A stretch of 64,000 bases of DNA from Bdellovibrio sp. KM01 (GTDB lineage: Bacteria > Bdellovibrionota > Bdellovibrionia > Bdellovibrionales > Bdellovibrionaceae): contig NZ_CP058348.1 of NCBI RefSeq assembly GCF_013752535.1, positions 1,674,001-1,738,000 on the forward strand. Direction: 5' to 3'. Below the pieces are notes generated by a model. That model had not been told where the DNA came from, ran no database searches, and saw nothing but the letters and a program-made list of their open reading frames with translations. Position 1 is the first letter of the stretch. The number at the start of each line of letters is the position of its first letter. Below are positions 5,137 to 57,386 of this stretch, one piece after another. The position numbers were made by a program, and so were the translations under genes.

Positions 5137-6170
5137 CTGATGACCTCCATGCTAATAAGCGGAAGTGTCACTGATTTACGAACGAAAGTGGCAGACTTCA
5201 GGTCTGAGAGGAGCACATTTTTATCAACATATTGTCCTTGTTGATATATTTGAAAAACCAATTCATTTTTACTAGTCTGCGCATTAAGTCTAATCGTCAA
5301 TCGTGATAAGTTGACTGGCTCAACTTTGACAAAGGGAGCCGCACCACCCACTGGAGGAAGCGTTCTCAGAAAAATGTCAGCATTGTTATAGCTTGCGTTT
5401 GTAACTGGATGCGTATTTTGAAAGTTCACCGAGGCGAGAGCTGTCGTCATAGGAATCAAATCGTCGCCTGCAACGCGCCCCAGATAAGATGCAAAACGAG
5501 GTGCCGTTAGAATATTAATTCCCCCAGCACTGTTTAGCGGACGCAGGTAAGTCGGACAGGAGAGCAAGAATAGTTTTCCGTCTGCCCAGCGGTTTGAGAA
5601 AACCTTGGTCATTGTACCAGCGTTAGGGCCGCCGGCAGTACCGGTTACATTAGCAACGGAATTCAAACCTACATATTGAATAGATCCGTTGTTCATTAGA
5701 TCAGGGGAATTCCCTGCATTTTTATAAGCAAACATAGGGTCAAAGACCAAAGAGTCGAACTGGTCTTCTTCTGTCTGCAGCAGGTAGAAATATTTGCCTG
5801 CGGTTAAAGTTAACTTTCTTTCTGCGATATTCGCTTTGCTTAAAGTGGAGAATGGCACATCAGGATAGTAGTCATAAAAGTTTTTGCCGGTATCGTCGGT
5901 CAAGGAAAGCTTGTTAAAGCTCGCCGCGGATTTCTTAAGAATGTTGACGGTTGCGATATTTAAAGTTGAAAGATCGGCTTCGCCTTCAGAGCGTGCAGTT
6001 TGTTTTTTCAATGCCGTCGTAAAGTCAGCAATAAATTTGGCATTGCCCAGGGCCACAACGCCAATTAAGCCAACGACAACCATTAATTCCGTAACAGTCA
6101 TCCCACGCTTATTGAGAAGAGGATTGTGCTTCGCTATTTTACAGTGATGAAATAAGTGTACTTTTTCCAC
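5133..6170 (-). CDS. PilW/GspJ-like minor prepilin, cassette 1
   Basis: A prepilin of 345 residues from the GTG at 6170. The mature N-terminus follows KRG and reads MTVTELMVVVGLIG, with the conserved Glu at mature position 5 and one hydrophobic helix, so a prepilin peptidase should process it. The leader of about 24 residues is long. Motifs shared with the other two cassettes include DDTGKNFYDYYPD, FDPMFAY and FLRTLPPVGG. An in-frame ATG at 6185 is less likely because the Shine-Dalgarno AAGGAGGA falls inside the first codons after it and lies just before the GTG. It overlaps the small prepilin gene by 37 bases and the EF-hand gene by 4. It probably sits in the tip complex of a pilus or pseudopilus. 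Confidence 0.85.
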   Translation of the reverse strand: MEKVHLFHHCKIAKHNPLLNKRGMTVTELMVVVGLIGVVALGNAKFIADFTTALKKQTARSEGEADLSTLNIATVNILKKSAASFNKLSLTDDTGKNFYDYYPDVPFSTLSKANIAERKLTLTAGKYFYLLQTEEDQFDSLVFDPMFAYKNAGNSPDLMNNGSIQYVGLNSVANVTGTAGGPNAGTMTKVFSNRWADGKLFLLSCPTYLRPLNSAGGINILTAPRFASYLGRVAGDDLIPMTTALASVNFQNTHPVTNASYNNADIFLRTLPPVGGAAPFVKVEPVNLSRLTIRLNAQTSKNELVFQIYQQGQYVDKNVLLSDLKSATFVRKSVTLPLISMEVIR

Positions 6171-6604
6171 TGATCCTCCTTCCATTTGTTAGCAAGGATG
6201 TTCTGACTTGCCAGGGTAATTTTAATGTCGACCTGATAAAGATTACGTACGAACAAACTCGGGATGATAACGTAACCAAAATAGGCCTGACAGCCATCTT
6301 TTGCACATTGAGCTCTTGGAATTAAATTACCATTCGAAATTCCGTAGGGAAGTTTGTCTGCTGCCAGCAAAGCCTCTTCCTTTTTGACATTGGTTTCGAA
6401 GGTCACTTGATACATAGAAAGATTAAAGCGAATGCTTTCAACGATCGCCTGAACATTGTCGTTCGCAACACGCGATAGTTTTAGTTGTGATGTCATACCC
6501 GCAATGTAGCTGATATAGTAATAAGTCGAGTAGCTGACGATAATACCGATTGCGACAGCCGCTAACAACTCTATCATTGTGAAACCGCGATTACCGAGCT
6601 TCAT
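6134..6604 (-). CDS. Small PilV/GspI-like minor prepilin, cassette 1
   Basis: A 156-residue prepilin with a 7-residue leader ending NRG and mature start FTMIELLAAVAIG. Glu is at position 5 and the hydrophobic helix reaches about residue 36. The body shares YQVTF, a paired-cysteine segment (QC then GC five residues on) and GYVI with the small prepilins of cassettes 2 and 3. Start ATG 6604 has AAAGGG eight bases upstream and lies one base after the giant prepilin gene. It is expected to be cleaved by a PilD-type peptidase and to assemble with the two neighbouring prepilins into a tip complex. Assignment to pilus or T2SS cannot be made here because no assembly ATPase, secretin or platform gene is in the window. 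Confidence 0.85.
   Translation of the reverse strand: MKLGNRGFTMIELLAAVAIGIIVSYSTYYYISYIAGMTSQLKLSRVANDNVQAIVESIRFNLSMYQVTFETNVKKEEALLAADKLPYGISNGNLIPRAQCAKDGCQAYFGYVIIPSLFVRNLYQVDIKITLASQNILANKWKEDQWKKYTYFITVK
6174..6181 (-). promoter_or_regulatory. Ribosome binding site that sets the GTG start of the PilW-like gene
   Basis: AAGGAGGA on the minus strand lies three bases before GTG 6170-6168. It falls within the coding end of the upstream small prepilin gene, which supports translational coupling and excludes the ATG at 6185. The spacing is short. Confidence 0.6.
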
Positions 6605-33241: not shown

Positions 33242-36200
33242 ATGTCGGTGAAAAACAAGTCAGGGAACGCTATTTTGCAGGTGCTTGCCGCACTAGTGGT
33301 TATGGGCATTAGTTTCTATTTCTTGTCGGCCTACGTAATCGCTCAACGAAAACAAATCGTAAAAACTAAAAATGTGGTGACGTTGAAATTCGCAGTGAAC
33401 AGTGCGATGGACTATGTCGTATTTGGTGTTCGTCAAAAGTATTGCTTTGATAACGGCACGATTCTGCAAAATATTGATGCCTGTAATTGGAAGCACGCAG
33501 GCAACGTTGAGCGCCTGGTGATGTCAGATGAGCAACTTCAATCTTTAAGAGAGATGGTTGCAGCGGGTGCGAACATCGGACCGCATGACACTGATATGAA
33601 TAAGCTGCGCCTGGATAAGATTGACCTGATGTTAAACTTTCCAGTCTCTCCAGCGCATCCCTTGTTTCCGATCGTTGATGCTTTAAAAACAGTAGTGAAT
33701 GAAACCAATGGCCAAGTGATCAAGGTTAAAGGAATTCACATCGTACTTAATCGTCCTGAAAACAGTGGTTATCTTCCCAAAGCAGGACGCGAAGTCTACA
33801 TCATGGCCGAAGCCTCGCTGTTAGATGATAGTGGTGATGTGATTCAGGTGGGGCGCGTGCCTTTAAGCGTTCGCTCGCAGATTGCCATTTACCCTCGGGA
33901 AATGGGCTCCTTCGCTTTGGTTCTGCCTAAAGATCTTCATATGGATAAGTCGTGGAATGCTTCAGCCACTGACGGAGATGTGAATCTTCACAAGTTCGAC
34001 GACAGAGCCTCTCTTGGTACAAGTATGGGTCTTGTTTTTAACAGTCCGGTCTTTGTGAACGGCAATATCTATTTACCAAATGACACGGGAGACGCGGGTA
34101 CCTCCAATTATGCAGCCGTTACATTTGCTGATCGTGTTTACATGGGTAATGGGTGGATTTTGAAATCCGACGGCAATCCCTATGCTCCTGCGACATTGGG
34201 AGGTTTGCCGGATCGCTATTGGTCGGACTCTCGCGTGTTCGGTGGTTTTTTAAATGGAATTGAAAATGACGGAAGTTCCGATGCCGGGTTGGAAGTAATG
34301 TCGGGGCAGGTGAGTAATTTGCCCGCTGGAGATTTTGATTGGAATCGTATTTGTGCCGATTACAATAAAAAGACTGTCGACATTGGCACCATGAAAGTTT
34401 CTAAGATCAAAGCCAAGATGGTCGATGATTCAACGAATGGTTCAACGCAAAATTCTAAATATAAGATTACTCTCAGTAACTACAATCAGTACTATCCGCA
34501 GAAAAACACCATTCCGGCTCCGAACGTTGAAAAATGGAAGCCGGGTACGATTTCGGTTAGTAACATCAATAAATGGGGTGACTCCACGACCACGGGTGCA
34601 GTGACGTCTCTCATTCTTGCGTATGGAACTGGTTCTGATTATCGCGAAGTTGTCTTTGATATGACCAAATATGGAACCGCTATTTTACTACCCCAGGTTA
34701 TAAATGAAGATCGCCGAAAAAATTTGGAGGCGGCTCTTAAAGAGGCCAACGACACCATTAATAAATCGTCCGATAAAACCAATGCTCTGCAATCGGATCT
34801 GAATAAATCTATGACGGATTTAGCGGCCGCAAATACGGAATTGGCAAAAAAGAAAGATGAGTTGAATACCGAGTTGGCGAAACCTGTCTATGCAAGTCCT
34901 TCCCCAAGTCCCTCGGTAAGTCCAAGCCCCAGTCCCAGCGCAAGTCCCACTGTGAGTCCTTCGCCGACAGTGTCGCCTTCTCCCACGGCCTCTCCGACTG
35001 TTTCGCCTTCAGTGTCGCCAACGGTGTCACCGTCTGTATCTCCAACAGTTTCGCCAACGGCGTCAGCCAGCGTAACTCCTTCGCCATCGGCGACGACAAG
35101 TCCTTCGCCGACACCCGCACCCACTGTTGGTGATCCAACGCTTTATCAAAATCCTGATACAATAGCCAAGTTGAATCAGGAGATCGAAGCATTGAACAAA
35201 AAGATCAGTGATCTTCAGGCGCACATCGCAGATCTTAAAAATGTGCAGATCCCTGCCAATGATAAAAACAATTCGGACGCTAAAGCCACGGTGTCTTCTG
35301 CGACAGCGGCCTTGGCAGACTATCAACAAATGATCGACAACCCTCCAAAATTTACGATTGAAATGGATGCGATGAAAACGGGGAGCGGTCGTGAATATCT
35401 GGATCGTGCTTACCTGTCCGTCAATCTTACCAATGCAGCTAATCTAAGAGACATAGACGGAAACAAAATTACCGTTTTCTCCGTTCGCTTTAAAGCTTAC
35501 GACGGCACCTATTGGAATAGTGCGCCGGTGTGGCCGGATGAAAACAGTGACAAGCATCTCATGGGCTATCTTAACTATTCGATTGATAGTGGCGGGAATC
35601 TGATTAGACCGTCTGGACTTTCAGCGACAGCAAATACTTCAGGGGCAGAGGAAGACGAATCTGGAAATTCCACTGATATCGCTCAAGCCTGTGAAGATTT
35701 TTACGACAATATGAATTCTCAATCTTTTGGCGCTGCCAACTGGGGGACAAGTTTTGCAGGAGGCACGCGCTCTTCTTGGAATTTTGCAGGGGTTGACAGT
35801 TCAGTTCCTAAAGAAAAGGGACATGAAAGTGAACCTATATTGGAGGAAAGAATCTTTAGCGCTGACAGCACGGACTTTATGGTAAATTCAATTGTAGGTA
35901 ATTGTGTTATTAAAGCAGGCGCAACTTTTGTCACGGGTTTTTATACTTGTGACAATCTGACTATTGAAGGCGGGCGCACGAAACCTTTAACCATTGTCGG
36001 GACCTTTATCATCGGTAAGACTTTAAAAATCAACGAACAGGCTATTCGCACCGGCATTCAGTGGAACAGCATTTATCACCCACAATCCACACGGATTTTG
36101 CGTTCACGAAAAATCTTAAAACCTATGACCGAGCCAGACAATGTGGCTAAGTGTGATAAATTGCCTTCTCCGATTTGGCATCCAATCCCATCTATTCAAG

Positions 36201-36385
36201 AAACTGCAGATCGCATGGCCTGCAACGTGATCAGTCTGCGTGCGAAAGCAGATCCATTTAAGTGGACGGCTGTGGATCCAGACTGTGGTGTGGATCCCGC
36301 CAAGAAACAAACGGTTCCAACATGCAAACGTCGTATTATTCGTTACTTCGTGGTTGAACAATCCCGGGAAGGGTTGGGGATGTGA
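33242..36385 (+). CDS. Giant GspK/PilX-like prepilin with coiled-coil hairpin, cassette 2
   Basis: A 1047-residue prepilin from ATG 33242 (GAGG five bases before; an ATG frame from 33185 is rejected). The 8-residue leader ends KSG, and the mature chain NAILQVLAALVVMGISFYFL lacks Glu5, as in GspK. Residues about 487-548 and 640-699 are two heptad-rich helices joined by a Pro/Ser/Thr-rich linker (553-628). The insert is absent from the cassette 1 protein. The C-terminal domain keeps SFGAANWGTSF, NCVIKAGATFVTGFYTCDNLTI, GTFIIGKTLKI and DPFKWTAVDPDCG. TGATG overlap couples it to the small prepilin. A tip protein with a projecting hairpin is inferred. Confidence 0.85.
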   Translation: MSVKNKSGNAILQVLAALVVMGISFYFLSAYVIAQRKQIVKTKNVVTLKFAVNSAMDYVVFGVRQKYCFDNGTILQNIDACNWKHAGNVERLVMSDEQLQSLREMVAAGANIGPHDTDMNKLRLDKIDLMLNFPVSPAHPLFPIVDALKTVVNETNGQVIKVKGIHIVLNRPENSGYLPKAGREVYIMAEASLLDDSGDVIQVGRVPLSVRSQIAIYPREMGSFALVLPKDLHMDKSWNASATDGDVNLHKFDDRASLGTSMGLVFNSPVFVNGNIYLPNDTGDAGTSNYAAVTFADRVYMGNGWILKSDGNPYAPATLGGLPDRYWSDSRVFGGFLNGIENDGSSDAGLEVMSGQVSNLPAGDFDWNRICADYNKKTVDIGTMKVSKIKAKMVDDSTNGSTQNSKYKITLSNYNQYYPQKNTIPAPNVEKWKPGTISVSNINKWGDSTTTGAVTSLILAYGTGSDYREVVFDMTKYGTAILLPQVINEDRRKNLEAALKEANDTINKSSDKTNALQSDLNKSMTDLAAANTELAKKKDELNTELAKPVYASPSPSPSVSPSPSPSASPTVSPSPTVSPSPTASPTVSPSVSPTVSPSVSPTVSPTASASVTPSPSATTSPSPTPAPTVGDPTLYQNPDTIAKLNQEIEALNKKISDLQAHIADLKNVQIPANDKNNSDAKATVSSATAALADYQQMIDNPPKFTIEMDAMKTGSGREYLDRAYLSVNLTNAANLRDIDGNKITVFSVRFKAYDGTYWNSAPVWPDENSDKHLMGYLNYSIDSGGNLIRPSGLSATANTSGAEEDESGNSTDIAQACEDFYDNMNSQSFGAANWGTSFAGGTRSSWNFAGVDSSVPKEKGHESEPILEERIFSADSTDFMVNSIVGNCVIKAGATFVTGFYTCDNLTIEGGRTKPLTIVGTFIIGKTLKINEQAIRTGIQWNSIYHPQSTRILRSRKILKPMTEPDNVAKCDKLPSPIWHPIPSIQETADRMACNVISLRAKADPFKWTAVDPDCGVDPAKKQTVPTCKRRIIRYFVVEQSREGLGM
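34898..35127 (+). repeat. Degenerate Pro-Ser/Thr codon repeat
   Basis: About 77 codons encoding repeats of Ser-Pro and Thr-Val-Ser-Pro. Codon choice varies (TCC, TCG, TCT, AGT), so the DNA is a degenerate rather than perfect microsatellite. It encodes the flexible loop between two coiled-coil helices of the cassette 2 prepilin. Confidence 0.85.
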
Positions 36386-36834
36386 TGAAAAAGCTAAACA
36401 CTCGTGGGCAAACAATTGTCGAATCATTGGTGGCATTGGGACTCATTTCCTTTATCGGTTTGATTTTTTTTGGTGGTTTGGTTCAGCTTCGTAAAACCAC
36501 ATCTGATAGCTTGCTTGATTCTGCAACCGACAGACAGATTTCCGACATTGCCGAAAACATTAAGGCCGGTGTGCAAAAGTATCAGGTGAATTTCAATCTC
36601 GACAAAGCGGCACTGGAAACTTTGCTTAAACCTGAAAATCTACCCATGGTTTGGGATGTTGGTGTGGTGGCGGAAAAAGGTCAGTGCGATCGCTGTCAGG
36701 GGACTTATGGTTATGTGATTCAGCCCTTTGATAAGTATCGTGGGCTTTACATGGTGACTTTGCGTCTTTCTCATAAGAGCTGGCTTCCTTCTGAGACGTA
36801 CCGTGACTATAACTTTATTGTGAGTGCAAAATAA
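36385..36834 (+). CDS. Small PilV/GspI-like prepilin, cassette 2
   Basis: A 149-residue prepilin from ATG 36385 in a TGATG overlap (a GTG three bases earlier would add one Met). The leader ends NTRG and the mature N-terminus QTIVESLVALGLISFIGLIFF has Glu5. The body contains YQVNF, a conserved CDRC pair, GYVIQPFDKYRGLYMVTLRLSHKSW and a final FIVSAK. It is close to its cassette 3 copy and more distant from the 6134-6604 protein. Its stop overlaps the next start (TAATG). Predicted minor pilin of the tip complex. Confidence 0.87.
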   Translation: MKKLNTRGQTIVESLVALGLISFIGLIFFGGLVQLRKTTSDSLLDSATDRQISDIAENIKAGVQKYQVNFNLDKAALETLLKPENLPMVWDVGVVAEKGQCDRCQGTYGYVIQPFDKYRGLYMVTLRLSHKSWLPSETYRDYNFIVSAK

Positions 36835-37832
36835 TGTTGAAAAACCAAAAGGGTTTAACCTTAGTAGAAATGATGCTCGGGATCGGATTATTCGCGATCG
36901 TGATTTCTATTGTTGTTGCTGTCCAGGTGAAAATGTCGCAACAGCAGGTGGAGATGATTAGAAAGCTGGATGATTCCGTGGACCAGCATTTGGCTGAAAG
37001 GATTCTTTTTAAAGATCTAAGCGGGATCGATATTTCCTATAACAATCTTTTGGTTAAAGATGACCATGGGAACAACTTTTATGATTTTTATCCTGACATC
37101 ACAGAGAATATTTTAAAAGTTCGAACTGATCGCGAGCTGAATTTAACTCTCGCAGGGAAGGATGCATTTTACGTTTTTTCGCAAAATTCTGCAGCCGGTC
37201 CGCTTTTAACCTTTGATCCTATGTGGGCCTATGATGTGGGACCTGAGCCCGCAGATCCCAATACGCCTGCTTCACTCGAGTTTAACGGTGAAAAAAATCG
37301 CAAGTGGATTTCTAATGAGAGTAACGGCGGGCGGCCCGGATTTTGGAAAGTTGGACATCTTCTTTTTTATGATACTCCAAGCCGGATTCGACCCAGTGTC
37401 GGTGATGTCATAGATAAAACCATTCCCCCACGGAGTTCATTTTTTCTGGGCGCGGTGATCTCTGGAAGTGACCTACTTCAAAAGGTGTCCGGTGATGCCG
37501 CTGGGTTGTTTAATATGACCGAGCCCGATACGGGCGACGCGATCAACAGTCTTGATGATTTTCTAAGAAAAGTTCCTGCTGTCGGAGGCGGACAAACCGT
37601 TGTTCGCGTGCGCGCTGCCAGATTGGTTAAATATTATATTGAACCAGATACCAAAAAAAATGCAGAACTTTATAAAATAGCTCCTGCCAACTTTTTTATG
37701 GCGGAGTACCGCAATGGCCAGTTCGAACAGCCGACGTTATTGGCCGATGGAGTGGGCAGAGTGTTGTTTCGTCGCGATTCAGTAGTTAAGAAAATGATTT
37801 ATTTTAAAATCGAAAAAGCCGAGTTGAAATAG
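36834..37832 (+). CDS. PilW/GspJ-like prepilin, cassette 2
   Basis: A 332-residue prepilin with leader MLKNQKG and mature start LTLVEMMLGIGLFAIVISIV, Glu at position 5. Shared family motifs are DDHGNNFYDFYPDITENIL, FDPMWAY, KWISNESNGGRPGFWK, YDTPSRIRP, FLRKVPAVGGGQT and FRRDSV. The start is in a TAATG overlap with the small prepilin gene. The size exceeds GspJ (about 200 residues) and fits larger PilW-like proteins. It should be processed by the prepilin peptidase and packed next to the giant prepilin. Confidence 0.87.
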   Translation: MLKNQKGLTLVEMMLGIGLFAIVISIVVAVQVKMSQQQVEMIRKLDDSVDQHLAERILFKDLSGIDISYNNLLVKDDHGNNFYDFYPDITENILKVRTDRELNLTLAGKDAFYVFSQNSAAGPLLTFDPMWAYDVGPEPADPNTPASLEFNGEKNRKWISNESNGGRPGFWKVGHLLFYDTPSRIRPSVGDVIDKTIPPRSSFFLGAVISGSDLLQKVSGDAAGLFNMTEPDTGDAINSLDDFLRKVPAVGGGQTVVRVRAARLVKYYIEPDTKKNAELYKIAPANFFMAEYRNGQFEQPTLLADGVGRVLFRRDSVVKKMIYFKIEKAELK

Positions 37833-37880
37833 TTTATTCAGTAAATGTTCAGTGCGTATTTTTTGTACAAGGGGAGCGTT

Positions 37881-39149
37881 ATGAAAGACTTAAATTTCTT
37901 GATAGCAGCAGTCTTGGGGTTATCGGCACCTGCTCATGCCGATCAGGAGTCTGTGGTGACCGTCAGCAAAGATGTCCCAATGGCCGTCAATTCTGTTTCG
38001 GCTGGAGAGTCTATTTCGGGAGCGCCGGCTTCAGGAACGGTCACTCGTTCGGGAAAAAGTACCATGACAGTTCGGTTGATCAATTCGTGTTTTGCCACGA
38101 ATTTGCGTGCAGTTTCCAATCCCTTGGCAAAGAGCTCTTTAATTAATGCCGATATTGAACTCAAAGTCGGAGGCGTCACATATAAACTCTTTGCTGAATA
38201 TCCTGCGGCTCTTGTGGGTGCCGGAGGCAGTGGCGTGCCAGCTTCGGGGACGGTCTCAAACTTTACCGCCTCTAAAGCGAGTGTGGAGCCGGTCGGGGGA
38301 ACTGTTGCAGCGTTTGGTAATATCGTCGAGTTCAAAACAAAAATTCCGACATCTGTGACGGTCGATAATGAAGCTACGATCACCATCTCCAAAGATTCTG
38401 TTTCTTTAGGAAAGATGTCCTTTCTGCAAAGCGTGCAAGATTGCAGCACGGGACCTGTCTTCGGTGATTATGGTTGGTCCTCAAAAATGCCCACTTATAA
38501 ATGCGGCAATTTTATGGGAAAGGACGGTGATATCACCGCGACATTTGGTGGCTTTAACGTCGCTCCCGATCGCTCCTTGGTTGAACTTTTCATCAGTTTT
38601 CCGGGTGAAACAGGTTTCTGTGGGGGATTTTGGTCACCGTTGATGGTTTTCTTTGATGATAAACTTCCAAAGTTTAATACACTCTCTGATTTTCCTTTGA
38701 ACCCAGGGGGAAAAGTCTATTGGCCAGATGCCAAGAGTCCTGGATTTTTTCTGGCGATGGACCGCGATCGCAATGGCAAAATTGATCAGAAGGATGAACT
38801 TTTTGGAGATAACAACTCCGCCATCAATGGCTTTGAAGCGTTAAAGAAGCTCGACACCAATCATGACGGCCTCATCGACGCCAAAGATAAAGATTTTAAA
38901 AGGTTGGTGTTATGGAATGACAAGAATGCTGATGGTATCAGTCAGTCGAAGGAACTAACGGATGCAGGGCTGAAGCTCAGCAAAATTTCATTGAAGTATC
39001 GAATGAGCGCCGAAAGTTTAGGAAACGCAGAAATTCGCGAGCGGGCAAAGTTCTGGTACACCGATGCGAAAGGAAAGCAGCGCTCAGGAAATATTTATGA
39101 CATTTGGCTAGCACCTCATATTCCGACCCAACTTGCGGAATCGAAATAA
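37881..39149 (+). CDS. Secreted triple EF-hand protein, cassette 2
   Basis: A 422-residue protein from ATG 37881, with GGGGAG five bases upstream; a frame start at 37845 is unlikely. The signal peptide ends AHA. The mature N-terminus VVTVSKDVPMAVNSVSAG is almost identical in cassette 3. Calcium loops start near residues 294 (DRDRNGKID then ELFGD), 325 (DTNHDGLID) and 347 (DKNADGIS). SFPGETGFCGG and FWYTDAKGK are shared with the third copy. Last gene of the cassette, probably exported by Sec and acting outside with the prepilins. Adhesin or calcium-gated tip function is inferred. Confidence 0.87.
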   Translation: MKDLNFLIAAVLGLSAPAHADQESVVTVSKDVPMAVNSVSAGESISGAPASGTVTRSGKSTMTVRLINSCFATNLRAVSNPLAKSSLINADIELKVGGVTYKLFAEYPAALVGAGGSGVPASGTVSNFTASKASVEPVGGTVAAFGNIVEFKTKIPTSVTVDNEATITISKDSVSLGKMSFLQSVQDCSTGPVFGDYGWSSKMPTYKCGNFMGKDGDITATFGGFNVAPDRSLVELFISFPGETGFCGGFWSPLMVFFDDKLPKFNTLSDFPLNPGGKVYWPDAKSPGFFLAMDRDRNGKIDQKDELFGDNNSAINGFEALKKLDTNHDGLIDAKDKDFKRLVLWNDKNADGISQSKELTDAGLKLSKISLKYRMSAESLGNAEIRERAKFWYTDAKGKQRSGNIYDIWLAPHIPTQLAESK

Positions 39150-39309
39150 TGAGTTCACAGATCTCAAGTAGATACGTTTCCGAGATTGAGATTTCAGGGC
39201 TTGGTTGGATATGTTTTTAATTGAGACGGAAGGATTACTTGATTGATACAAAAGTAAGCCGTTAGTTAGCGTAATTACCTAAAATCGTTTGAAAAGTCCC
39301 GTTGTTCCA

Positions 39310-39337
39310 TAAGGTTTGTCGGGATCTTTACCGATAA
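39310..39337 (+). promoter_or_regulatory. Candidate sigma-28 (FliA) promoter for cassette 3
   Basis: TAAGGTTT at 39310-39317 (consensus TAAAGTTT, 7 of 8), 12 bases, then ACCGATAA at 39330-39337 (consensus GCCGATAA, 7 of 8). The usual spacing is 11, so this is one base longer. The -10 box ends 21 bases before ATG 39359. It would make cassette 3 independently transcribed and co-expressed with motility genes. Confidence 0.55.
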
Positions 39338-39358
39338 GTTCTCACAGGAGCCATCGGT

Positions 39359-42300
39359 ATGTTTATGAAAACGAGTAAACAAAAAGGTAACGCAATTCTG
39401 CAGGTCCTTACCGCCATCGCGGTGATGAGCATCAGTTTCTATTTTTTATCTGCATACGTTATCTCTCAACGAAGACAAGTAGTTAAAACCAAGAACGTGG
39501 TGAATCTTAAGTTCGCAGTGAACAGTGCGATGGACTACGTTGTCTTTGGTATCCGTCAAAAGTACTGCTTTGATAATGGATCACTTCTTCAAAACACAAC
39601 AAGCTGTGATTGGAACAACCCAGGTAACGTCGAACGTTTGGTGATGTCAGATGAGCAGTTGGCCTCCCTTAAGGGAATGGTGGCTGCTGGTGCGAATATT
39701 GGTCCTCATGATTCCAATTTGGATAAATTACGTCTTGATTTCATCGATATGACATTGAATTTTCCGGTGTCGTCAGCCCATCCTTTATTTCCTGTCGTGA
39801 ATAATTTGAAACGCGTGGTGGACGAGCAAACGGGTAAAGAGATTCCGGTTCAAGGTATTCGTATGTATCTAAGTCGTCCAGCGAACTCGGGTTACTTGCC
39901 GAAAGCAGGACGTGAAGTATATGTCTCGGCACAGATTTCATTAATTGATAAAAATAAAAATGTCATCCAGATCGGAAGTGCGCCTCTTGAAGTGCGTGCT
40001 CAAATCGCTATTTATCCACGCGAGCTAGGTTCCTTTGCGCTGGTGCTTCCCGGCGACCTTCGCATGGACCGTACGTGGGATTCAGTACCACCGAAAAATG
40101 GCGACGTTATTTTCCATAAATTTGCAAACAAAGCGACCATGGGCACAAGCCCCGGCATGATTTTTAAAAGCCCCGTTTTCGTAAACGGTAACATCAATTT
40201 ACCTGTGGATAGCGGCAATGCTTCTAACTCGAACTATGCTGGCGTAACCTTTGCGGATCGCGTGTACATGGGGAATGGTTGGATTTTAAAACCGGACAAC
40301 TCTCCTTATAATCCTCCAACTCAGGGTGCACTTCCTGATCGTTATTGGTCAGATTCCCGCGTGTTTGGAGGATTCTTAAGAGGTATAGAAAACGATGGTA
40401 TGCGTGACTTGGGTCTTGATGTTATGTCGGGGACCGCGAGTGGCTCTTCTGGTACCGAATTCGACCTTAATAAAATTTGCGCTGAACTTAATCAGAAAAG
40501 CACGCAACTTGAATCAATGGAGGCGTCTAATATCAAGGCCACGCCTGGAAAGAATCCAGACGACCCTTATCGTGTTGTCCTTACTAATTACAATACGTTT
40601 TATCCTCAAAAAAATCAGTTACCAGCTCCAACGACATCAGGGGACTGGAGTACGGGTAAGTGGTCCATTGATAATAAAAATAAAATAACGGGCGCCATCA
40701 TGAATGTTGAATTTTCATATGGTACAGGTGCTGATGCCCGTTCATTTAGTGTCGACCTTGTTAAGGACGGGAATGTTACAATTTTCCCTCCGGTTCTAAA
40801 TCCTGCAAGAAAAGCGGCAATTGTTGCGAACTTAAATCAGGCAAATACCGATTATAAGAATGCTAAAAATTCAGACACATCGAATACGGACAGCTTAACT
40901 AAACTAAAAAAGAAGTTAAACACCGCAGAATCAGAACTCAGTGATTTGGAAGATCAATTGGATGCAGAACTAGCGAAGCCGGTCGAGCCGGTGGCAGCGC
41001 CGTCTCCTTCACCGACGGCCACGGCAACAGTTTCTCCAAGTCCGACGGCGACAGCTACGGCAAGTGCATCACCGACGGCCACTGCGTCAGCGACTGCTTC
41101 ACCGACTGCTACGGCTACGGCATCGGCGTCTCCGACAGCTACAGCTTCTCCAACTGTAACAGCAACTACAACTGCTACGGTATCACCAACAGTTTCTCCG
41201 ACCGTGACTCCGCCTCCTGGGGGGTACCAGGATGCTGATAAGATCAAAGACTTAAAGGCACAAATTTCAGCCAAAAAGTCTGAAATTTCTGATTTAAAAA
41301 ATCAGATCACCGCTGCTGAAACAAATTCGACGAATTATACTAAGGCGATGGCAGACGCCCAGAATAATATTGCGAAGTACACGGCACAGCTTGATGCCTA
41401 TACGGCATTGGAGAAAAATCCTCCATCATTTGAAATTGACTTGGACAAAGCTTACAGCTGGACAGGAAAAGAATATAAAGACCGTTTGGATGTTTTAATC
41501 GGTATCAATAACGGCTTGTACCTTATGAATGCTGCGGGTGTCCGTATTGCTGATTTCTCAATTCGTTTAAAAGGTTACGACGGCACTTACTACAACAGTA
41601 TCCCGGTCCGTTCAACGGCGGATCCAGCCCATCTGCGTGGTTATTTGAACTACCATATCGGAGCGAGTGGCAATATCACTCGTCCTACCGGTCTTTCATC
41701 AACGTCTTCAACGGGTGATACTTCTGAAGATACGGCGGACATGGCTGCGAAGTGTGAAGACTACTATAATATGATTAACTCCCAGTCTTTCGGGGCTGCG
41801 AACTGGGGTGTGAGCTTCTCTCCAGGGACAAGAAAGTCATGGAACTTTGCGGGTGATCTAAACGCGACAGCTGCAGATCCAGTGGTTCCAAGCAGAACTT
41901 GGACGATGGATGACCAGGACTTCTATGTTCGTTCTATCGTGAAAGACTGTGTGATCACTCCAAAAGCCAACTTCGTTGCGGGTTTCTATACGTGTGACAA
42001 CTTAACGATCCAGGGTGGTCGTACAAAACCATTGCGCATCATCGGTACCTTTATCATTGGTAAAACTTTGAAAATTGATGAGCAAGCAATTCGAACGGGT
42101 ATCGTTTGGAGCAGTATCTATTATCCTCAGGCGACACAAGAGCTCAGAGAGCGTGGAATTTTGCATCCTTTGTCCGAGCCTAGTAATATAACGAAATGTG
42201 ATAATTTGCCGTCACCAATCTGGCATCCAATGCCCTCGATTCAAGAGACAGCGGATCGCATGGCTTGTAACGTGATCAGTTTGCGCGCGAAAGCAGATCC

Positions 42301-42430
42301 ATTTAAGTGGACAGCGGTGGATCCGGATTGTGGTATCCCAGTGGGGGCAACACAAACTGTTCCGACTTGTAAGCGTCGTATTTACCACTACTTCGTTGTC
42401 GAGCAGTCTAGGGAAGGTTCAGGACTATGA
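39359..42430 (+). CDS. Giant GspK/PilX-like prepilin with coiled-coil hairpin, cassette 3
   Basis: A 1023-residue prepilin whose leader of 10 residues ends KQKG and whose mature N-terminus NAILQVLTAIAVMSISFYFL lacks Glu5. AGGAG lies nine bases before ATG 39359; ATG 39365 is an alternative. Residues about 480-545 and 625-684 are heptad-rich helices joined by a Pro/Thr/Ala-rich linker (about 548-621) that differs in composition from the Pro/Ser linker of cassette 2. The flanking regions are highly similar to cassette 2, including NPGNVERLVMSDEQL-type and SFGAANWG motifs and the C-terminal DPFKWTAVDPDCG. Its ATGA overlap couples it to the small prepilin. Confidence 0.85.
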   Translation: MFMKTSKQKGNAILQVLTAIAVMSISFYFLSAYVISQRRQVVKTKNVVNLKFAVNSAMDYVVFGIRQKYCFDNGSLLQNTTSCDWNNPGNVERLVMSDEQLASLKGMVAAGANIGPHDSNLDKLRLDFIDMTLNFPVSSAHPLFPVVNNLKRVVDEQTGKEIPVQGIRMYLSRPANSGYLPKAGREVYVSAQISLIDKNKNVIQIGSAPLEVRAQIAIYPRELGSFALVLPGDLRMDRTWDSVPPKNGDVIFHKFANKATMGTSPGMIFKSPVFVNGNINLPVDSGNASNSNYAGVTFADRVYMGNGWILKPDNSPYNPPTQGALPDRYWSDSRVFGGFLRGIENDGMRDLGLDVMSGTASGSSGTEFDLNKICAELNQKSTQLESMEASNIKATPGKNPDDPYRVVLTNYNTFYPQKNQLPAPTTSGDWSTGKWSIDNKNKITGAIMNVEFSYGTGADARSFSVDLVKDGNVTIFPPVLNPARKAAIVANLNQANTDYKNAKNSDTSNTDSLTKLKKKLNTAESELSDLEDQLDAELAKPVEPVAAPSPSPTATATVSPSPTATATASASPTATASATASPTATATASASPTATASPTVTATTTATVSPTVSPTVTPPPGGYQDADKIKDLKAQISAKKSEISDLKNQITAAETNSTNYTKAMADAQNNIAKYTAQLDAYTALEKNPPSFEIDLDKAYSWTGKEYKDRLDVLIGINNGLYLMNAAGVRIADFSIRLKGYDGTYYNSIPVRSTADPAHLRGYLNYHIGASGNITRPTGLSSTSSTGDTSEDTADMAAKCEDYYNMINSQSFGAANWGVSFSPGTRKSWNFAGDLNATAADPVVPSRTWTMDDQDFYVRSIVKDCVITPKANFVAGFYTCDNLTIQGGRTKPLRIIGTFIIGKTLKIDEQAIRTGIVWSSIYYPQATQELRERGILHPLSEPSNITKCDNLPSPIWHPMPSIQETADRMACNVISLRAKADPFKWTAVDPDCGIPVGATQTVPTCKRRIYHYFVVEQSREGSGL
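41000..41223 (+). repeat. Degenerate Pro-Thr-Ala codon repeat
   Basis: About 74 codons encoding units such as SPTATAS. The codons are varied. It occupies the same place as the Pro-Ser repeat of cassette 2 but has diverged to a different residue mix and ends in TPPPGG. Confidence 0.85.
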
Positions 42431-42885
42431 TTAAAAAATCATTTCTCCAACAATCAAAAGGTCAATCCATCGTTGAAGCACTGGTGGCTTTAGGTCTGAT
42501 CTCAGTGATCGGTCTTGCTTTCACAGGCGGACTGGTGCAGTTACGTAATACTTCGAAATCGAGCTTGCTGGCATCTGCGACAGATCGTCAGGTGTCAGAT
42601 ATTTCCGAGAACATCAAGGCCGGCGTTCAAGACTATCAAGTGAACTTTGACTATGATCCTTCACAGATTGATACGTATCTGGCTTTGAACAATCTGCCCA
42701 TGCAATGGGATGTGGGCAGAGTTGCAGCAAAAGGGCAGTGTGATACTTGTCAGGGAACTTATGGCTATTTGATTCAACCCTATGAAAAGTATCGTGGTCT
42801 TTATTTAGTGACCTTGCGTATGACTCATAAAAGCTGGTTGCCTGAGAAATTTAGAGACTACACATTCGTGGTGAGTGCAAAATGA
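42427..42885 (+). CDS. Small PilV/GspI-like prepilin, cassette 3
   Basis: A 152-residue prepilin: leader ending QQSKG, mature start QSIVEALVALGLISVIGL with Glu5. It shares YQVNFDYD, CDTC, GYLIQPYEKYRGLYLVTLRMTHKSW and FVVSAK with the cassette 2 copy. ATG 42427 overlaps the stop of the giant prepilin gene (ATGA), and its own TGA overlaps the next start. The CxxC pair is conserved and may form a disulfide. Predicted minor pilin in the same tip complex. Confidence 0.87.
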   Translation: MIKKSFLQQSKGQSIVEALVALGLISVIGLAFTGGLVQLRNTSKSSLLASATDRQVSDISENIKAGVQDYQVNFDYDPSQIDTYLALNNLPMQWDVGRVAAKGQCDTCQGTYGYLIQPYEKYRGLYLVTLRMTHKSWLPEKFRDYTFVVSAK

Positions 42886-51019: not shown

Positions 51020-52780
51020 TTAAACCGTCGCTTCCAGCGGAATGAATTTAAACTGAGTCACATCGACCAAGCCCTTATCCGTAAGTTTCAAGGTCGGAAT
51101 CACTGGTAGTGCCAAAAATGCCATTTGAATAAAAGGTTCTTCTAAAACCACACCCTGACTTTTAAAGGCAACTTTCAATTTCTCGATACCAGCTTTGATG
51201 TTATCTGCACTTTGCAGACTTAAAAGACCCGCGATTGGAAGTTCGACGGATGCCTTCACTTGTCCCTGATCCGCAACGACAAAACCGCCACCTGTGCGAA
51301 TGATCTCGTTCACGGCCACGCACATATCGCGAAGATTGGTTCCGATCACCATAATATTATGGGAATCGTGGGCTACGGAACTTGCCAGCGCCCCGGATTT
51401 TAAACCCGTTCCCTTAACGAATCCCAGTCCCGGTGGAAGGTTTTGACCATAGCGTTCGATATTTGCCATATACAAAACATCATTTTGATCGAACTGCACA
51501 CCATCATAAAAGCTCTTTACATGCTTCGTTATGATTTCGTTGTGCACGATCTCGATCACGTTATAGTGACCTTGTTTAGTTGGATATTTCAATTGGCTCT
51601 CTTTCAAAAGAGAGCGTTTAATCGTATTTTCCATTGGAGGCTGTGAAGCCTGCAATTTTGCCGGAACTTCGTCGTGTAAACGCAGCTCAGAAACAAAGCG
51701 ACCGCCAATCATCACATCCGTGATTTTCACTTGCGACAGATCACTCAAAAGAACCAAGTCCGCTTTTTTGCCCGGCGCTACAAGTCCCAGACGTTTCAAA
51801 CCAAAATGTTTCGCAGCGGAATAAGTGGCTAACCGATAAGCGACATGAATCGGCACTTTGTGGGTGTTGATTAATTCCTTAATGATATAATTGATATGAC
51901 CTTCATGCGCGATCTCAAAGGGGTTGCGATCATCCGTGCAAAGAAGACATTGAGGAGAGGAGAAATCACTCACCAGTGGCGCCAGTGTCTTGAGGTTTTT
52001 AGCCACACTGCCTTCGCGAATGATCAGGCCCATTCCTTTTTGCAGTTTTTCTCGGCCCTCTTCCAAGGTGACGGTTTCATGACAATTTTGAATTCCCGCA
52101 AGTAAATAAGCATTTAATGCTTTTCCGCGAAGCAGGGGAGCGTGACCATCCAGATTCAGATCAGAAAAGGCTTCCACCTTGTCTAAAACATCTTTGTCGG
52201 CATTGATCACGCCTGGAAAATTCATCATTTCAGCCAGTCCCAAAACGGCTGGATGGTCTTTGAGGTGTTTCATCTCGCTTAAAGTAAAATCAGATCCCGT
52301 GGTTTCAAATCCAGGTAAAGCTGGCACGCAAGAAGACATCTGCACGAAAAGATTTTGCTTCGTCAGTTCCGCGCACCTTAAAAACCACTCAAAACCACGA
52401 GCGCCCAGGACATTCGTGATTTCGTGGGGATCACAGATAGCAGTCGTCGTACCCAGAGGCAAAGTGGCGGCTTCAAATTCAAAAGGCGACATCATCGAAG
52501 ATTCAATATGCAAATGCCCATCGATAAAACCAGGTGTGATAAAGGCCCCGGCACCATCAATCACGCGCTTTGCTTTCGCATCCTGGTAATCAAGACCGAC
52601 GCCGACGATATATTCCCCGCCAATGGCGATAGCACTGGGATATGTTTCGCCCGTGATGACGTCTAGAATTTGGATGTTCCGGATTAACACATCCAAAGTT
52701 TCATCACCCCGAGCCTGGGCCAGTCTTGTCGGTAATTCAGTGCGGGAAATATTTTGCGTTCTTTTGTTTTGCAAAGACAC
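51020..52780 (-). CDS. ade: Adenine deaminase
   Basis: Hydrolyses adenine to hypoxanthine and ammonia. The 586-residue protein of the amidohydrolase family shows the metal site PGFIDGHLHIESSMMSPFEFE, TTTAICDPHEITNVLGARGF, the DGHAPLLRG segment, CTDDRNPFEIAHEGHI, and C-terminal AVNEIIRTGGGFVVADQG and SVAHDSHNIMVIGTN, all typical of Ade. The GTG start 52780 follows AGGAG at ten bases. Last gene of the operon xdhA-xdhB-xdhC-ade, so its product hypoxanthine would feed xanthine dehydrogenase. Confidence 0.93.
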   Translation of the reverse strand: MSLQNKRTQNISRTELPTRLAQARGDETLDVLIRNIQILDVITGETYPSAIAIGGEYIVGVGLDYQDAKAKRVIDGAGAFITPGFIDGHLHIESSMMSPFEFEAATLPLGTTTAICDPHEITNVLGARGFEWFLRCAELTKQNLFVQMSSCVPALPGFETTGSDFTLSEMKHLKDHPAVLGLAEMMNFPGVINADKDVLDKVEAFSDLNLDGHAPLLRGKALNAYLLAGIQNCHETVTLEEGREKLQKGMGLIIREGSVAKNLKTLAPLVSDFSSPQCLLCTDDRNPFEIAHEGHINYIIKELINTHKVPIHVAYRLATYSAAKHFGLKRLGLVAPGKKADLVLLSDLSQVKITDVMIGGRFVSELRLHDEVPAKLQASQPPMENTIKRSLLKESQLKYPTKQGHYNVIEIVHNEIITKHVKSFYDGVQFDQNDVLYMANIERYGQNLPPGLGFVKGTGLKSGALASSVAHDSHNIMVIGTNLRDMCVAVNEIIRTGGGFVVADQGQVKASVELPIAGLLSLQSADNIKAGIEKLKVAFKSQGVVLEEPFIQMAFLALPVIPTLKLTDKGLVDVTQFKFIPLEATV

Positions 52781-52793
52781 GGGGAGAGATCTC

Positions 52794-53597
52794 CTAGTTT
52801 TTAGAATTTAATATGGCATCTCGGGTTTTTAAAATTTGCGCAACAATACTAAAGGATATTTCCGCTGGATTATTGCCACCAAAAGTTTCACCCATAGGAC
52901 AGTAAAATTCTTTGAGCAGGTTTTCAGAAATACCTGCAGACAAAAGATCACTCTCCAGGCGTTTTCGCTTCTGATCGCTCCCGACATTCCCGACATAACT
53001 AAAGCGACTGCGATTTTTCATAACCTCAACTAAGACGGGTAAATCCGAAGAATGCCCCATGGTCATGAGTGTGACATAAGAGTTGTCTGGAAGTTTTGCG
53101 ACTTCGTCTGACAGTTTATCCGTCACCACAGTTTTCAATTTTGAAGATTGGGGCAGGCGGGAAATCCATTCCTCGCGTTGATCAAAGCAAGTGACGTGGC
53201 AGTCCAGGAATAAAAGCATTCGAACAAATTCCTGCGAGATATGTCCGGCTCCGAATACGGCGATATGAAAAGGATTTTGCGATTTATGAAGTTCAAAAAA
53301 GAAACTTACGACTCCACCGCAGGTCATGCCGATGTCTTTTTGTAAATTCCAATCCACAAAGTGATTCTTATGGTCTTCACGGATCATACGTTGAGCTTCT
53401 TTGATGGCAGCAGCTTCTACTTTGCCACCACCCACGGTACCAAACTCCAGTCCATCAAGACTCACCAGGGCTTTTGCACCCACATCCTGAGGAGCAGACC
53501 CAATTTGTTTAACCATGGTGACCGCGACAAAGTTTTTTCCTGCTTCTTGCAGTTTTTTATAAGCGCTCAGGAAGGTTTCAAAATTAGGCCCGGTCAT
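52794..53597 (-). CDS. xdhC: Xanthine dehydrogenase accessory protein XdhC
   Basis: Inserts or sulfurates the molybdenum cofactor before it enters XdhB. The 267-residue protein has the N-terminal XdhC/CoxI domain (VTMVKQIGSAPQDVGAKALVSLDG, GTVGGGKVEAAAI, GMTCGGVVSFFFEL) and a C-terminal Rossmann domain (HIAVFGAGHISQEFVRML). Its final PMGETFGGNNPAEISFSIVAQIL is also typical. It overlaps xdhB by 14 bases and ade starts 13 bases after it. Confidence 0.9.
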   Translation of the reverse strand: MTGPNFETFLSAYKKLQEAGKNFVAVTMVKQIGSAPQDVGAKALVSLDGLEFGTVGGGKVEAAAIKEAQRMIREDHKNHFVDWNLQKDIGMTCGGVVSFFFELHKSQNPFHIAVFGAGHISQEFVRMLLFLDCHVTCFDQREEWISRLPQSSKLKTVVTDKLSDEVAKLPDNSYVTLMTMGHSSDLPVLVEVMKNRSRFSYVGNVGSDQKRKRLESDLLSAGISENLLKEFYCPMGETFGGNNPAEISFSIVAQILKTRDAILNSKN

Positions 53598-55917
53598 AGC
53601 GTGAAAGCTCCATCAAAACCACTTCTGGAGTAGCTGGTGAAATGATCTGCGGGATTTTCCCCTGAGCTTTATAGCGAAGAGCATCCTTAATCGCGGTCCA
53701 AGCACTAATTCCCAACAAAAATGGTGGCTCGCCCACAGCCTTAGAGCCGTGAATATTTGCCGTATTTCCATTGTTCTCGATGAATTCGACATTAAATACG
53801 CGAGGCGTATCTTGCACATTCGGAATTTTATAAGTCGTTGGCGAATGGCTTAATAGTCTTCCGTCTTTATTGTGGTAAAGCTTTTCAGAAGTGACCCAGC
53901 CCATGCCTTGCACAAAAGCACCGGTCACTTGCCCGCGATCAATACCGGGATTTAAAGGTCTCCCCAAATCCATCAAGATATCCGTGCGAAGCATTTTGTA
54001 TTCGCCAGTATAGGTATCGATCTCAACTTCAGTTGCTGCGACCCCATTCGTGAAATACTTAAAAGGTGTGCCTTTGCCCGTGGCTTTGGAATAACCCAAA
54101 CCTTCGGTTTTAAAGTGAGCATACTCACCCAAACTTACGCGGTTAAAGTAAGCTTTTAAAAGCAATTCCACCCACGAATGCTGCGTCTTAGTCGGCAAAT
54201 GGGTGACGGTACTGTCTTTGAATTCAAAGTCATCAAATTTAAGAGTCGCCTCATCAAACGCCGGGCACTCCGCGATATCGTCCATCGGAGCCTTGGCCAA
54301 TACTTGTTGAAAGACCCAAGCTAAACGCTTGCGAATCCCCATGGCCGCTTTTAAGGCGGCGGCCCCATTGATATCGGCACCACTGGATGCAGCCGTCGGT
54401 GAAGTATTGTGATTTTTCTCAGTCGAGGTCGCCATCACGCGCACTTGCTCTGCGGGAATTCCAAAGCAGTGTGCAACGATTTGTTGGATCTTGGTGTTTA
54501 CACCCTGACCCATTTCGGTCGCACCCGTTGAAACCTGCACGGTTCCATCTTTGTGTACATTCACCGAAGCGTTGCCTTGATTTAAGAAGCGCGCAGTAAA
54601 GGCAATCCCAAACTTAGTCGCTGAAACAGACAGGCCGCGAATTTTCCCTTGAGAGTTTTTATTAAACTCATCAATCGCCAGACGTCTCTTATCGTAATCA
54701 CAGTCTTTACGCAGACGAGTGAAGAGCTCTGTGAGGGGAGTGTTTTCAAGCTTTTGTCCATAGTGAGTGGTATTGCGAGTGTGTTCCTGGTAACAATTTC
54801 TCTCGCGAATTAACAGGGCATCAATCTTTAAGTGAGCGGCCATTTCCTCAATAATGCTTTCAATGGTCATCGTTCCTTGCGGACCACCGAAACCACGGAA
54901 GGCGGTATTAGAGTACATGTTGGTGCGAACGACATGACCTTCAATGAAAGCATTGGGCAAATAGTAAGCGCCATCGATGTGAAACAAAGCGCGATCTAAA
55001 ATAGAACTAGACAGATCGGCATAGGCTCCACCATCCGCATAAAGATGACATTTAAGTCCCAAGATCATTCCTTGGTCATCAAAAGCCACATCCCAAAAGT
55101 TTTTAAACGGATGACGTTTGCCAGTCATCGCCATGTCGTCGTCTTTTGACAATATTAAGCGCGCAGGACGATTCATTTTTTGCGCGACTAAAGCAGCCAT
55201 TGCTGCAAAAGGAGCGGCCTGACTTTCCTTGCCACCAAAGCCTCCACCCATGCGTTTCACCACGCAGACGACTTGATGAAGTGAAAGTCCCAAGGCTTCC
55301 GCCACCAGATGTTGAGTTTCCGTGGGATGTTGAGAACTGGAATGAACTTCGATCTGGCCATCCTCTAATGGGTAAGCGATACAAGCCTGAGATTCCAAAT
55401 AGAAATGCTCCTGGCCACCACACTCAAAAATTCCACTTAATCTGTGGGGCGCTGAAGTCATCGCTGTATCCACGTCGCCGCATTTCATCGGTCCCGCGTG
55501 ATACATGAAATCTTTCTTTTCAATACCAGCATCAATGGTTAAAACCGCATCGGCGTTTTCAATATCAAAAGTGATCAACTGACGGGCTTGTAAAAGTTGG
55601 TCGTAATTTGTTCCGACCAAAATCATTGCCGGCTCTTCGTAATAACCAATTTTGCTTTCAACCAAAATAGGTTGCTCGACGACGATCGTGCCCCAGGTAT
55701 TGTGATGCAAATCCTTAGCTGTAAAAGCCGCAAGAACTCCCGGGGATTTCAAAGCTTTTTCATAATGGATGGCTTTAAGTGTTCCCGCCGCAGCAGGCAC
55801 ACCCACGGGCAGGACCAAGACCTCTCCGTGTTGCATAAGTCGATCATCAATAAAAACACTGGTGCCACTGACATGGCCTAAAGAGGAATCATGCGGGATG
55901 TTTTTTCCTATGGACAT
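53584..55917 (-). CDS. xdhB: Xanthine dehydrogenase, molybdopterin-binding subunit
   Basis: The large catalytic subunit (777 residues) that hydroxylates hypoxanthine and xanthine. Signatures include VKRMGGGFGGKESQAAPFAAMAA, AFRGFGGPQGT, GATEMGQGVNTKIQQIVA, and the catalytic glutamate segment KAVGEPPFLLG near the C-terminus. GGAGG four bases before ATG 55917 supports the start. It overlaps xdhA by 10 bases and xdhC by 14, so translation is tightly coupled. Members of the wider family also oxidise aldehydes or CO, but the XdhC and Ade neighbours favour purines. Confidence 0.93.
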   Translation of the reverse strand: MSIGKNIPHDSSLGHVSGTSVFIDDRLMQHGEVLVLPVGVPAAAGTLKAIHYEKALKSPGVLAAFTAKDLHHNTWGTIVVEQPILVESKIGYYEEPAMILVGTNYDQLLQARQLITFDIENADAVLTIDAGIEKKDFMYHAGPMKCGDVDTAMTSAPHRLSGIFECGGQEHFYLESQACIAYPLEDGQIEVHSSSQHPTETQHLVAEALGLSLHQVVCVVKRMGGGFGGKESQAAPFAAMAALVAQKMNRPARLILSKDDDMAMTGKRHPFKNFWDVAFDDQGMILGLKCHLYADGGAYADLSSSILDRALFHIDGAYYLPNAFIEGHVVRTNMYSNTAFRGFGGPQGTMTIESIIEEMAAHLKIDALLIRERNCYQEHTRNTTHYGQKLENTPLTELFTRLRKDCDYDKRRLAIDEFNKNSQGKIRGLSVSATKFGIAFTARFLNQGNASVNVHKDGTVQVSTGATEMGQGVNTKIQQIVAHCFGIPAEQVRVMATSTEKNHNTSPTAASSGADINGAAALKAAMGIRKRLAWVFQQVLAKAPMDDIAECPAFDEATLKFDDFEFKDSTVTHLPTKTQHSWVELLLKAYFNRVSLGEYAHFKTEGLGYSKATGKGTPFKYFTNGVAATEVEIDTYTGEYKMLRTDILMDLGRPLNPGIDRGQVTGAFVQGMGWVTSEKLYHNKDGRLLSHSPTTYKIPNVQDTPRVFNVEFIENNGNTANIHGSKAVGEPPFLLGISAWTAIKDALRYKAQGKIPQIISPATPEVVLMELSRYDRA

Positions 55918-57386
55918 AAAACCTCCAGTGGTGACGACAACTCGGTCTTCATTTCATGGAAACATTTTTTAAACAGATTTTCCGTCACCAGGTGGCGATA
56001 CTCGGCACTGGCGCGCAGATCTGAAATCGGCTTAATCGATCCGGAAGCCAAAGCCCCCGCCGCAGCAAAGGTCATTTCGTTAAAGGATTTGCCGAGAAAA
56101 TGAGCTTCAACGGAAGGCATACGCGTAACGGTAGGGCCCACGCCCCCCATCGCGACACGAGCTTCAGAAATATGAGATCCATCTAACTTTAAAACCACAG
56201 CACAAGTAACCGCGGAAATATCCAAATCTTTACGCAACGAAACTTTGAAATAGCGATGCAGATAGTTGCCTTTAAGGGTTGGAACGAAAATGCCTGTGGC
56301 GATTTCATCTTCTGCTTTATCAAAGACCTTATAGCCCTGGTAGTAGTCATTTAGTTTTACCGTGCGTGCGCCACGAGTCGACTGCAGTTGGATTTCCGCA
56401 TCCAACACCATCAGTGCCGGAATACTATCACCAATCGGGGAGCCATTCAGAATATTGCCCAGCAACGTGCCCTGGTTTTTGATCTGCGGAGATGCAAAGA
56501 TATGCAAAAGACGTTTTAGTTCCGGGTGAGCGGATTTAACAAAATTCTCAACATCGGTCAGTGAAGCCATGGCGCCAATCAAGATTCCATGGGTCGAGCC
56601 GTTAACTGTATGGACGCCTGAAATTTTATTAAGAACCAAAATCTCCTGCAAAAAGGTTCTAGCCTTATTTACTAAAACACCCAGATCTGTGGCGCCAGCG
56701 ACCAAGCGCACTTGTTTGGACATAGCTTTAATCTGCAAGGCCTCAGACAGCGTCGCAGGCATATAAAGTTTTTTATTTTCGGAAGTAATCTCAACTCCAG
56801 CGTCGATTTCAGATTGGAAGTGAGTCGTTAAGGCTGAAGTTAAATAGCGGGTCGTCAAAGACTCCCATTTATTTAAATCCAAATTCGTTGCTGCTTTTAA
56901 GATCGGCTCATAGCCCGTGCAACGACATAAATTTCCAGTCAGGTAATTGCGTGCCTTTTTCTCGGTGACTTCTTGTTTGGACTCTTTGCAGTCCTCTGCC
57001 AGTTGAGCCATCGAGCACACCATTCCCGGTGTACAAAAGCCACACTGGCCCCCATGGAATTCGCGCATTTTATTTTGCACTTCACTTAAAGACTCCGCAT
57101 GCTTCATGCCTTCAACAGTCACGATGCAAGAAAGATCAAAAAGATAAACGGGAGCGATACAGGAATTAATTGCGCGCAAGGGAGTCCAACCGTCTTGACG
57201 TAAAGTCGCAGTGACAACGGTGCAGGCCCCGCAGTCGCCTTCAGCGCAAACAACCTTCGTTCCGGGCTTATGAAGAGTATTACGTAAGAATTGAGCAAGG
57301 GGCTGAAAAGCCTCTTCGCCGGAGACTTTTATCGTCTCGCCATTGACGTTTACTATAAGATGATTTCTTTTTGCTATTTGACCCAT
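55908..57386 (-). CDS. xdhA: Xanthine dehydrogenase, iron-sulfur/FAD subunit
   Basis: The 492-residue fused small subunit. Residues 1-170 carry the two [2Fe-2S] clusters: CAEGDCGACTVVTA (plant-ferredoxin type) and QCGFCTPGMVCS with NLCRCTGYEPIL. Residues about 195-490 form the FAD domain with VAGATDLGVLVNKA, SPQIKNQGTLLGNILNGSPIGD and YFKVSLRKDLDISAV. It receives electrons from XdhB and passes them to NAD+. First gene of the purine operon; a terminator for the opposite neighbour lies in the 126-base spacer upstream. Confidence 0.93.
   Translation of the reverse strand: MGQIAKRNHLIVNVNGETIKVSGEEAFQPLAQFLRNTLHKPGTKVVCAEGDCGACTVVTATLRQDGWTPLRAINSCIAPVYLFDLSCIVTVEGMKHAESLSEVQNKMREFHGGQCGFCTPGMVCSMAQLAEDCKESKQEVTEKKARNYLTGNLCRCTGYEPILKAATNLDLNKWESLTTRYLTSALTTHFQSEIDAGVEITSENKKLYMPATLSEALQIKAMSKQVRLVAGATDLGVLVNKARTFLQEILVLNKISGVHTVNGSTHGILIGAMASLTDVENFVKSAHPELKRLLHIFASPQIKNQGTLLGNILNGSPIGDSIPALMVLDAEIQLQSTRGARTVKLNDYYQGYKVFDKAEDEIATGIFVPTLKGNYLHRYFKVSLRKDLDISAVTCAVVLKLDGSHISEARVAMGGVGPTVTRMPSVEAHFLGKSFNEMTFAAAGALASGSIKPISDLRASAEYRHLVTENLFKKCFHEMKTELSSPLEVLCP

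Follow-up and report, generated by a model that had tools for sequence, protein, structure and literature searches.

The genome under study, from the genus Bdellovibrio, is a single contig of 3.96 Mb. The window, that is the whole stretch of 64,000 nucleotides which was analysed, possesses three copies of a four-gene cassette composed of a giant prepilin, a small prepilin, a middle prepilin and an EF-hand-like protein. Such cassettes were found in nearly every genome of the genus, and no publication describing them was found in the literature searched. The genes and the parts of the insert discussed below are as follows.

33242-36385, plus strand: cassette 2 giant prepilin, 1047 aa counted from MSVKNKSG, the likely start (the ORF opens at 33185)
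34679-34885, plus strand: cassette 2 hairpin arm 1, 69 aa, AILLP to AKP
34886-35143, plus strand: cassette 2 loop at the hairpin tip, Pro/Ser/Thr, 86 aa
35144-35341, plus strand: cassette 2 hairpin arm 2, 66 aa, YQNP to N
36382-36834, plus strand: cassette 2 small prepilin, 150 aa, Glu at +5, in the GspI/PilV position
36834-37832, plus strand: cassette 2 middle prepilin, 332 aa, Glu at +5, in the GspJ/PilW position
37845-39149, plus strand: cassette 2 EF-hand-like protein, 434 aa, predicted as likely exported; last gene of the conserved operon
39359-42430, plus strand: cassette 3 giant prepilin, 1023 aa (AlphaFold2 model m9055f57ca145)
40775-40981, plus strand: cassette 3 arm 1, 69 aa (model helix 482-538 at 40802-40972)
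40982-41224, plus strand: cassette 3 loop, Pro/Thr/Ala, 81 aa
41225-41419, plus strand: cassette 3 arm 2, 65 aa (model helix 626-686 at 41234-41416)
42427-42885, plus strand: cassette 3 small prepilin, 152 aa
42882-43898, plus strand: cassette 3 middle prepilin, 338 aa
43920-45191, plus strand: cassette 3 EF-hand-like protein, 423 aa
6606-9236, minus strand: cassette 1 giant prepilin, 876 aa as ORF, no insert (AlphaFold2 model m533f9dee340c)
about 7680-7710, minus strand: cassette 1 site equivalent to the insert, a tight turn after VTLYP
3928-6604, minus strand: cassette 1 small and middle prepilins and EF-hand-like protein (the latter at 3928-5136)

The interval 34898-41223, under which the insert had first been described, begins near the start of the loop in cassette 2 and reaches about as far as the loop in cassette 3 does, with three other genes in between. 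The operon order is kept in 49 of 55 relatives, and most of the exceptions lie at the ends of contigs or stretches. The product of the fourth gene is predicted to be exported and to have EF-hand-like calcium loops, and it is kept across the family. Its gene occupies the slot held in other pilus operons by PilY1, a calcium-binding protein. The PilY1 profile (PF05567) found no match in this genome, but the control genomes gave none either. Elsewhere in the window, at 51020-57386, reading of the ORFs showed an adenine deaminase-like gene beside xanthine dehydrogenase-like genes, which suggests purine breakdown.

The giants carry a type IV prepilin (class III) signal, with a short basic leader, Gly at -1 and a long hydrophobic helix. 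Cleavage of the cassette 2 giant falls at G^NAILQ, with Gln and not Glu at +5; in the AlphaFold2 model of cassette 3 the pilin helix spans residues 11-66. In all giants read, position +5 is occupied by Gln, Thr, Leu, Ala or other residues and never by Glu, while Glu at +5 is near-invariant in the small prepilins and invariant in the middle ones. This pattern of giant and partners is that of GspK/PilX-type tip pilins. PilX and GspK are likewise without Glu5 (PMC7541494), and GspK or PilX together with their partners show the pattern of the giants and the operon pilins (PMC7541494; PMC10191384). N_methyl matches were present in the small and middle prepilins, one above its cut-off, and the similarity of these proteins to GspI and GspJ is confined to the first 46-61 residues. 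The giants gave no Pfam match to T2SSK/GspK, and profile comparison with the GspK of this genome gave a probability of 0.3%. PilX_N (PF14341) had no match in the genome at E 0.1, although two control genomes did match. Family assignment by sequence searches of Pfam, NCBIfam and PDB was given up, as these yielded chance coiled-coil matches only. A candidate for a second GspK-like giant, at genome position 3012799, proved to be a Tex-like protein, in which the helix-hairpin-helix had caused the match. Type II secretion is encoded in this genome by a complete locus with its own GspH, I, J and K, and there is also a PilB-PilC locus. As the type II secretion system has its own GspK, the giants are not needed there, and from the two loci together we infer that they most likely cap a type IVa pilus.

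The best structural match of the hairpin-free cassette 1 model was ComZ (6qvi), the competence tip pilin of Thermus thermophilus, at Z 8.2 over 290 aligned residues and the full length (next match 6.8), and the cassette 3 model matched ComZ at Z 8.7; values of about 8 are reachable by unrelated models, and the rmsd is 12.8-15.1 Å over split domains, presumably as a result of differently oriented domains. No sequence similarity to ComZ was found in the giants. Ice-binding solenoids matched both giant models, and these are the relatives reported for ComZ itself (PMC6561018), in which an ice-binding-like beta-solenoid is inserted in a GspK-like pilin head. A weak Ig-like resemblance (Z 4-5) was observed at residues 374-562 of cassette 1 and 389-769 of cassette 3, where the hairpin splits the region. 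The predicted fold of the giants is thus one of nested domains: a pilin helix without Glu5 would be followed by a head carrying a ComZ-like beta-solenoid, an Ig-like domain would be inserted in this solenoid, and one turn of the Ig-like domain would bear a coiled-coil hairpin in the giants of cassettes 2 and 3. The Bdellovibrio giants differ from ComZ in their larger size, in the Ig-like domain, in the hairpin with its loop and in their operon. ComZ binds DNA (PMC6561018), whereas nothing suggests DNA binding by the giants.

The hairpin insert was confirmed as a real and sharply delimited feature. It comprises 215-221 residues in the cassette 2 and 3 giants and is situated at one exact beta-turn, where cassette 1 has a short turn. 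In the sequence alignment the same two strands are spanned in cassette 1 by 17 residues, and its AlphaFold2 model places strands at 476-486 and 489-502 with a tight turn between them at high confidence. The preliminary description was right, for this genome, that two of the three giants carry the insert. The AlphaFold2 model of cassette 3, based on 42 aligned sequences, has two long helices (residues 482-538 and 626-686) in which most blocks of ten residues show pLDDT values of 82-92, the first block of helix 2 being lower. The low-complexity loop between them is disordered in the model, with pLDDT about 30. With VIA-align both helices together fit the single antiparallel hairpin 9cpb_6D (123 of 123 residues, 1.5 Å, Z 12.9) and the hairpins of colicins E9 and E3 (Z about 11); Z values of this size are common for long helices, and such matches speak for the arrangement and not for kinship. 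The periplasmic adaptor hairpins of EmrA and AcrA were also among the matches, and a structural search of viral proteins gave no useful match. At 1.5 Å per residue the arms would be about 8.5-9 nm long. The helices had also been called heptad-rich, which holds for the column averages but only marginally for single sequences. Periodicity of hydrophobic residues was significant in both arms of the cassette 2/3 type when averaged over columns (P 0.005-0.015) and very strong in the loop-less paralogues (P ≤0.0002), and in single cassette 2 and 3 sequences it was marginal (P 0.01-0.14). These results support an antiparallel coiled-coil hairpin with arms of near-equal length, as had been proposed. 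The insert sits on the outside of a domain, so it is probably projecting, in agreement with the spike envisaged at first. With a pTM of 0.58, the cassette 3 model does not fix where the arm points.

The comparison of orthologues for insert presence and loop length, which had been suggested as a check, covered a set of 55 giant proteins. An insert is present at the site in 43 of them, either as a hairpin only or as a hairpin with loop, and is thus the commoner state; the loops range from 10 to 95 aa. A tree built from the core alone distinguished three lineages, namely cassette 1-like proteins without insert, proteins of about 930 aa having the hairpin without loop, and the cassette 2/3 lineage, in which the hairpin usually bears a loop. 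Two further insert-less proteins were placed within the hairpin side of this tree. Within the cassette 2/3 lineage the loop was lost or shortened at least three times. Each cassette of the window represents a lineage of its own within a single family of paralogues. In the genus, the cassette 1 type is seldom found together with the loop-less type of about 930 aa; among the genomes read only one (G017) has both, as if one type had taken the place of the other.

Modular tip pilins are a known kind of protein, of which the giants would be a variant. Like the tip subunits GspK (type II secretion) and PilX (type IVa pili), they are without Glu5 and are predicted to have an extra domain inserted in the pilin, and their operon includes two smaller prepilins keeping Glu5, as in GspK-I-J and PilVWX. 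They are far larger than GspK and PilX, and an EF-hand-like protein stands in place of PilY1. PilB and PilC of Streptococcus sanguinis likewise carry grafted domains on a tip minor pilin (PMC8179133, PMC9934059; reviewed in PMC10191384); those grafts are vWA and lectin domains, whereas the giants are predicted to have a nested solenoid, Ig-like domain and hairpin. The Kil Tip complexes of Myxococcus xanthus (PMC12075869) resemble the Bdellovibrio cassettes in that Myxococcus, too, is a predator and has several paralogous cassettes for minor-pilin tips. Their large subunit has variable outer domains, and the alternative tips differ by prey (PMC12075869). They differ in that the Kil pilus is of the Tad (type IVc) kind with three pilins per tip, and the main text of that report mentions no coiled coil (PMC12075869).

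Minor-pilin tips initiate pilus assembly and face outward. The operon, with its K-like giant, I-like small, J-like middle and EF-hand-like members, would most likely encode the tip complex of a type IVa pilus, and the K-like giant would occupy the very end of the pilus. The hairpin would act there as a rigid antiparallel arm with the disordered loop at its end, presenting this loop toward the surface met, at a distance of up to 9 nm from the Ig-like domain. Type IV pili are required for Bdellovibrio invasion according to work cited in PMC11003981 and PMC3818213, and Bdellovibrio has many, partly redundant adhesins (PMC11003981). On balance we favour the reading that the giants are tip pilins of nested domains in which the hairpin is an arm holding a changeable loop, prey being the surface that it would most plausibly meet. 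Going by Myxococcus, the cassettes could provide alternative tips, with the hairpin as an arm that lengthens their reach. With paralogous tip operons, an unusually nested giant and a single removable module, the locus offers a concrete candidate for how Bdellovibrio pilus tips meet prey.

The arms are nearly fixed in length. They measure 61-62 and 55-59 aa in most members (typically 62/59) and 69 and 64-66 aa in the cassette 2/3 clade (one outlier 67/58), a difference of +7/+7 residues, i.e. about one extra heptad per arm. As the +7 in both arms traces to one clade and few events, the correlation of arm lengths is kept as a description only. It provides a clean case of a coiled-coil arm that changed in length by one whole heptad in both strands while the end loop turned over freely. 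The flanks had been described as conserved, which stands for their length and fails for their sequence, as the arms of cassettes 2 and 3 are 40-41% identical and the cores 62-63% (identity values of the loop are inflated by composition). The best conserved part of the insert is formed by the loop-facing arm ends, which keep the motifs AKP before and YQDP after the loop along with regular Leu/Ile. This observation fits a rival explanation, that the hairpin is an assembly part which packs against a further subunit of the tip, against the EF-hand-like protein or a second giant, or against the secretin of the outer membrane, with the loop as a neutral connector. The locking of the antiparallel arms in length, the retention of the same arms in loop-less paralogues, the ability of the loop to shrink to 10-12 aa and the EmrA and AcrA matches also agree with it. 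A docking surface which diverges more than the core would be unusual, however, and the cassette 1 type manages in the same kind of operon without hairpin; we regard an assembly role as unlikely, though a serious alternative.

The fast evolution claimed for the loop was borne out in that the loop is disordered and changes faster than the rest, but not in the sense of adaptive evolution. Of the 14 recent indels seen in four pairs of close relatives, 10 are in the loop, a region amounting to about 8% of the protein (P 1e-8); the arms have none. The loop changes mainly by indels in repetitive codons, and its DNA has imperfect repeats only. Loop dN/dS tends to lie above core dN/dS; it is ≤0.23 wherever computable (several values are saturated), and positive selection on the loop found no support. 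In one case, close species with cores 91-93% identical have loops of 10 and 81 residues; on this ground the loop may be no more than a spacer. Its make-up among the relatives is P/S/T, P/T/A or Gly/Ser/Thr-rich, or the loop is nearly absent. Long Pro/Ser/Thr stretches also follow just after lipoprotein-like signal sequences in this genome (L005, L007), where the same type of linker is reused. Since this type recurs in lipoprotein linkers and the loop of relatives may be Gly/Ser/Thr-rich or near-absent, the make-up is not specific. The picture is thus of a spacer prone to slippage on a neck that stays fixed, which is compatible with a binding role or with none. A bolder extension of the favoured arm-and-loop reading, that the loop is swapped or resized at the conserved neck (AKP...YQDP) of alternative ComZ-like tips and thereby sets which prey surfaces are gripped, is speculative and on present evidence would hold with low probability.

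It is still less probable that the loop is a bristle selected for diversity, for example as O-glycosylated Ser/Thr/Pro or as a target varying to escape phages or prey. The differences in loop length and make-up between close species (P/S/T to P/T/A to G/S/T) and the raised loop dN/dS would suit such a bristle, but the dN/dS ceiling, the indels in repetitive codons as slippage would give them and the similar lipoprotein linkers all tell against it. That the hairpin is an artefact of predicting low-complexity sequence which is really disordered is very improbable, as the marginal heptad signal of single sequences and a Pro halfway along arm 2 of several members are outweighed by the agreement of column-averaged heptads, exact arm lengths, the paired +7, high pLDDT and the strong periodicity of loop-less paralogues.

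Some more distant relatives possess an insert of different make-up. In the relatives at L104-L106 the EF-hand-like gene precedes the giant gene instead of coming at the end, and the insert cannot clearly be called a coiled coil. Another relative (L108, 3991-8160, minus strand) is a giant of 1389 aa with a far larger, cysteine-containing insert near the same place.
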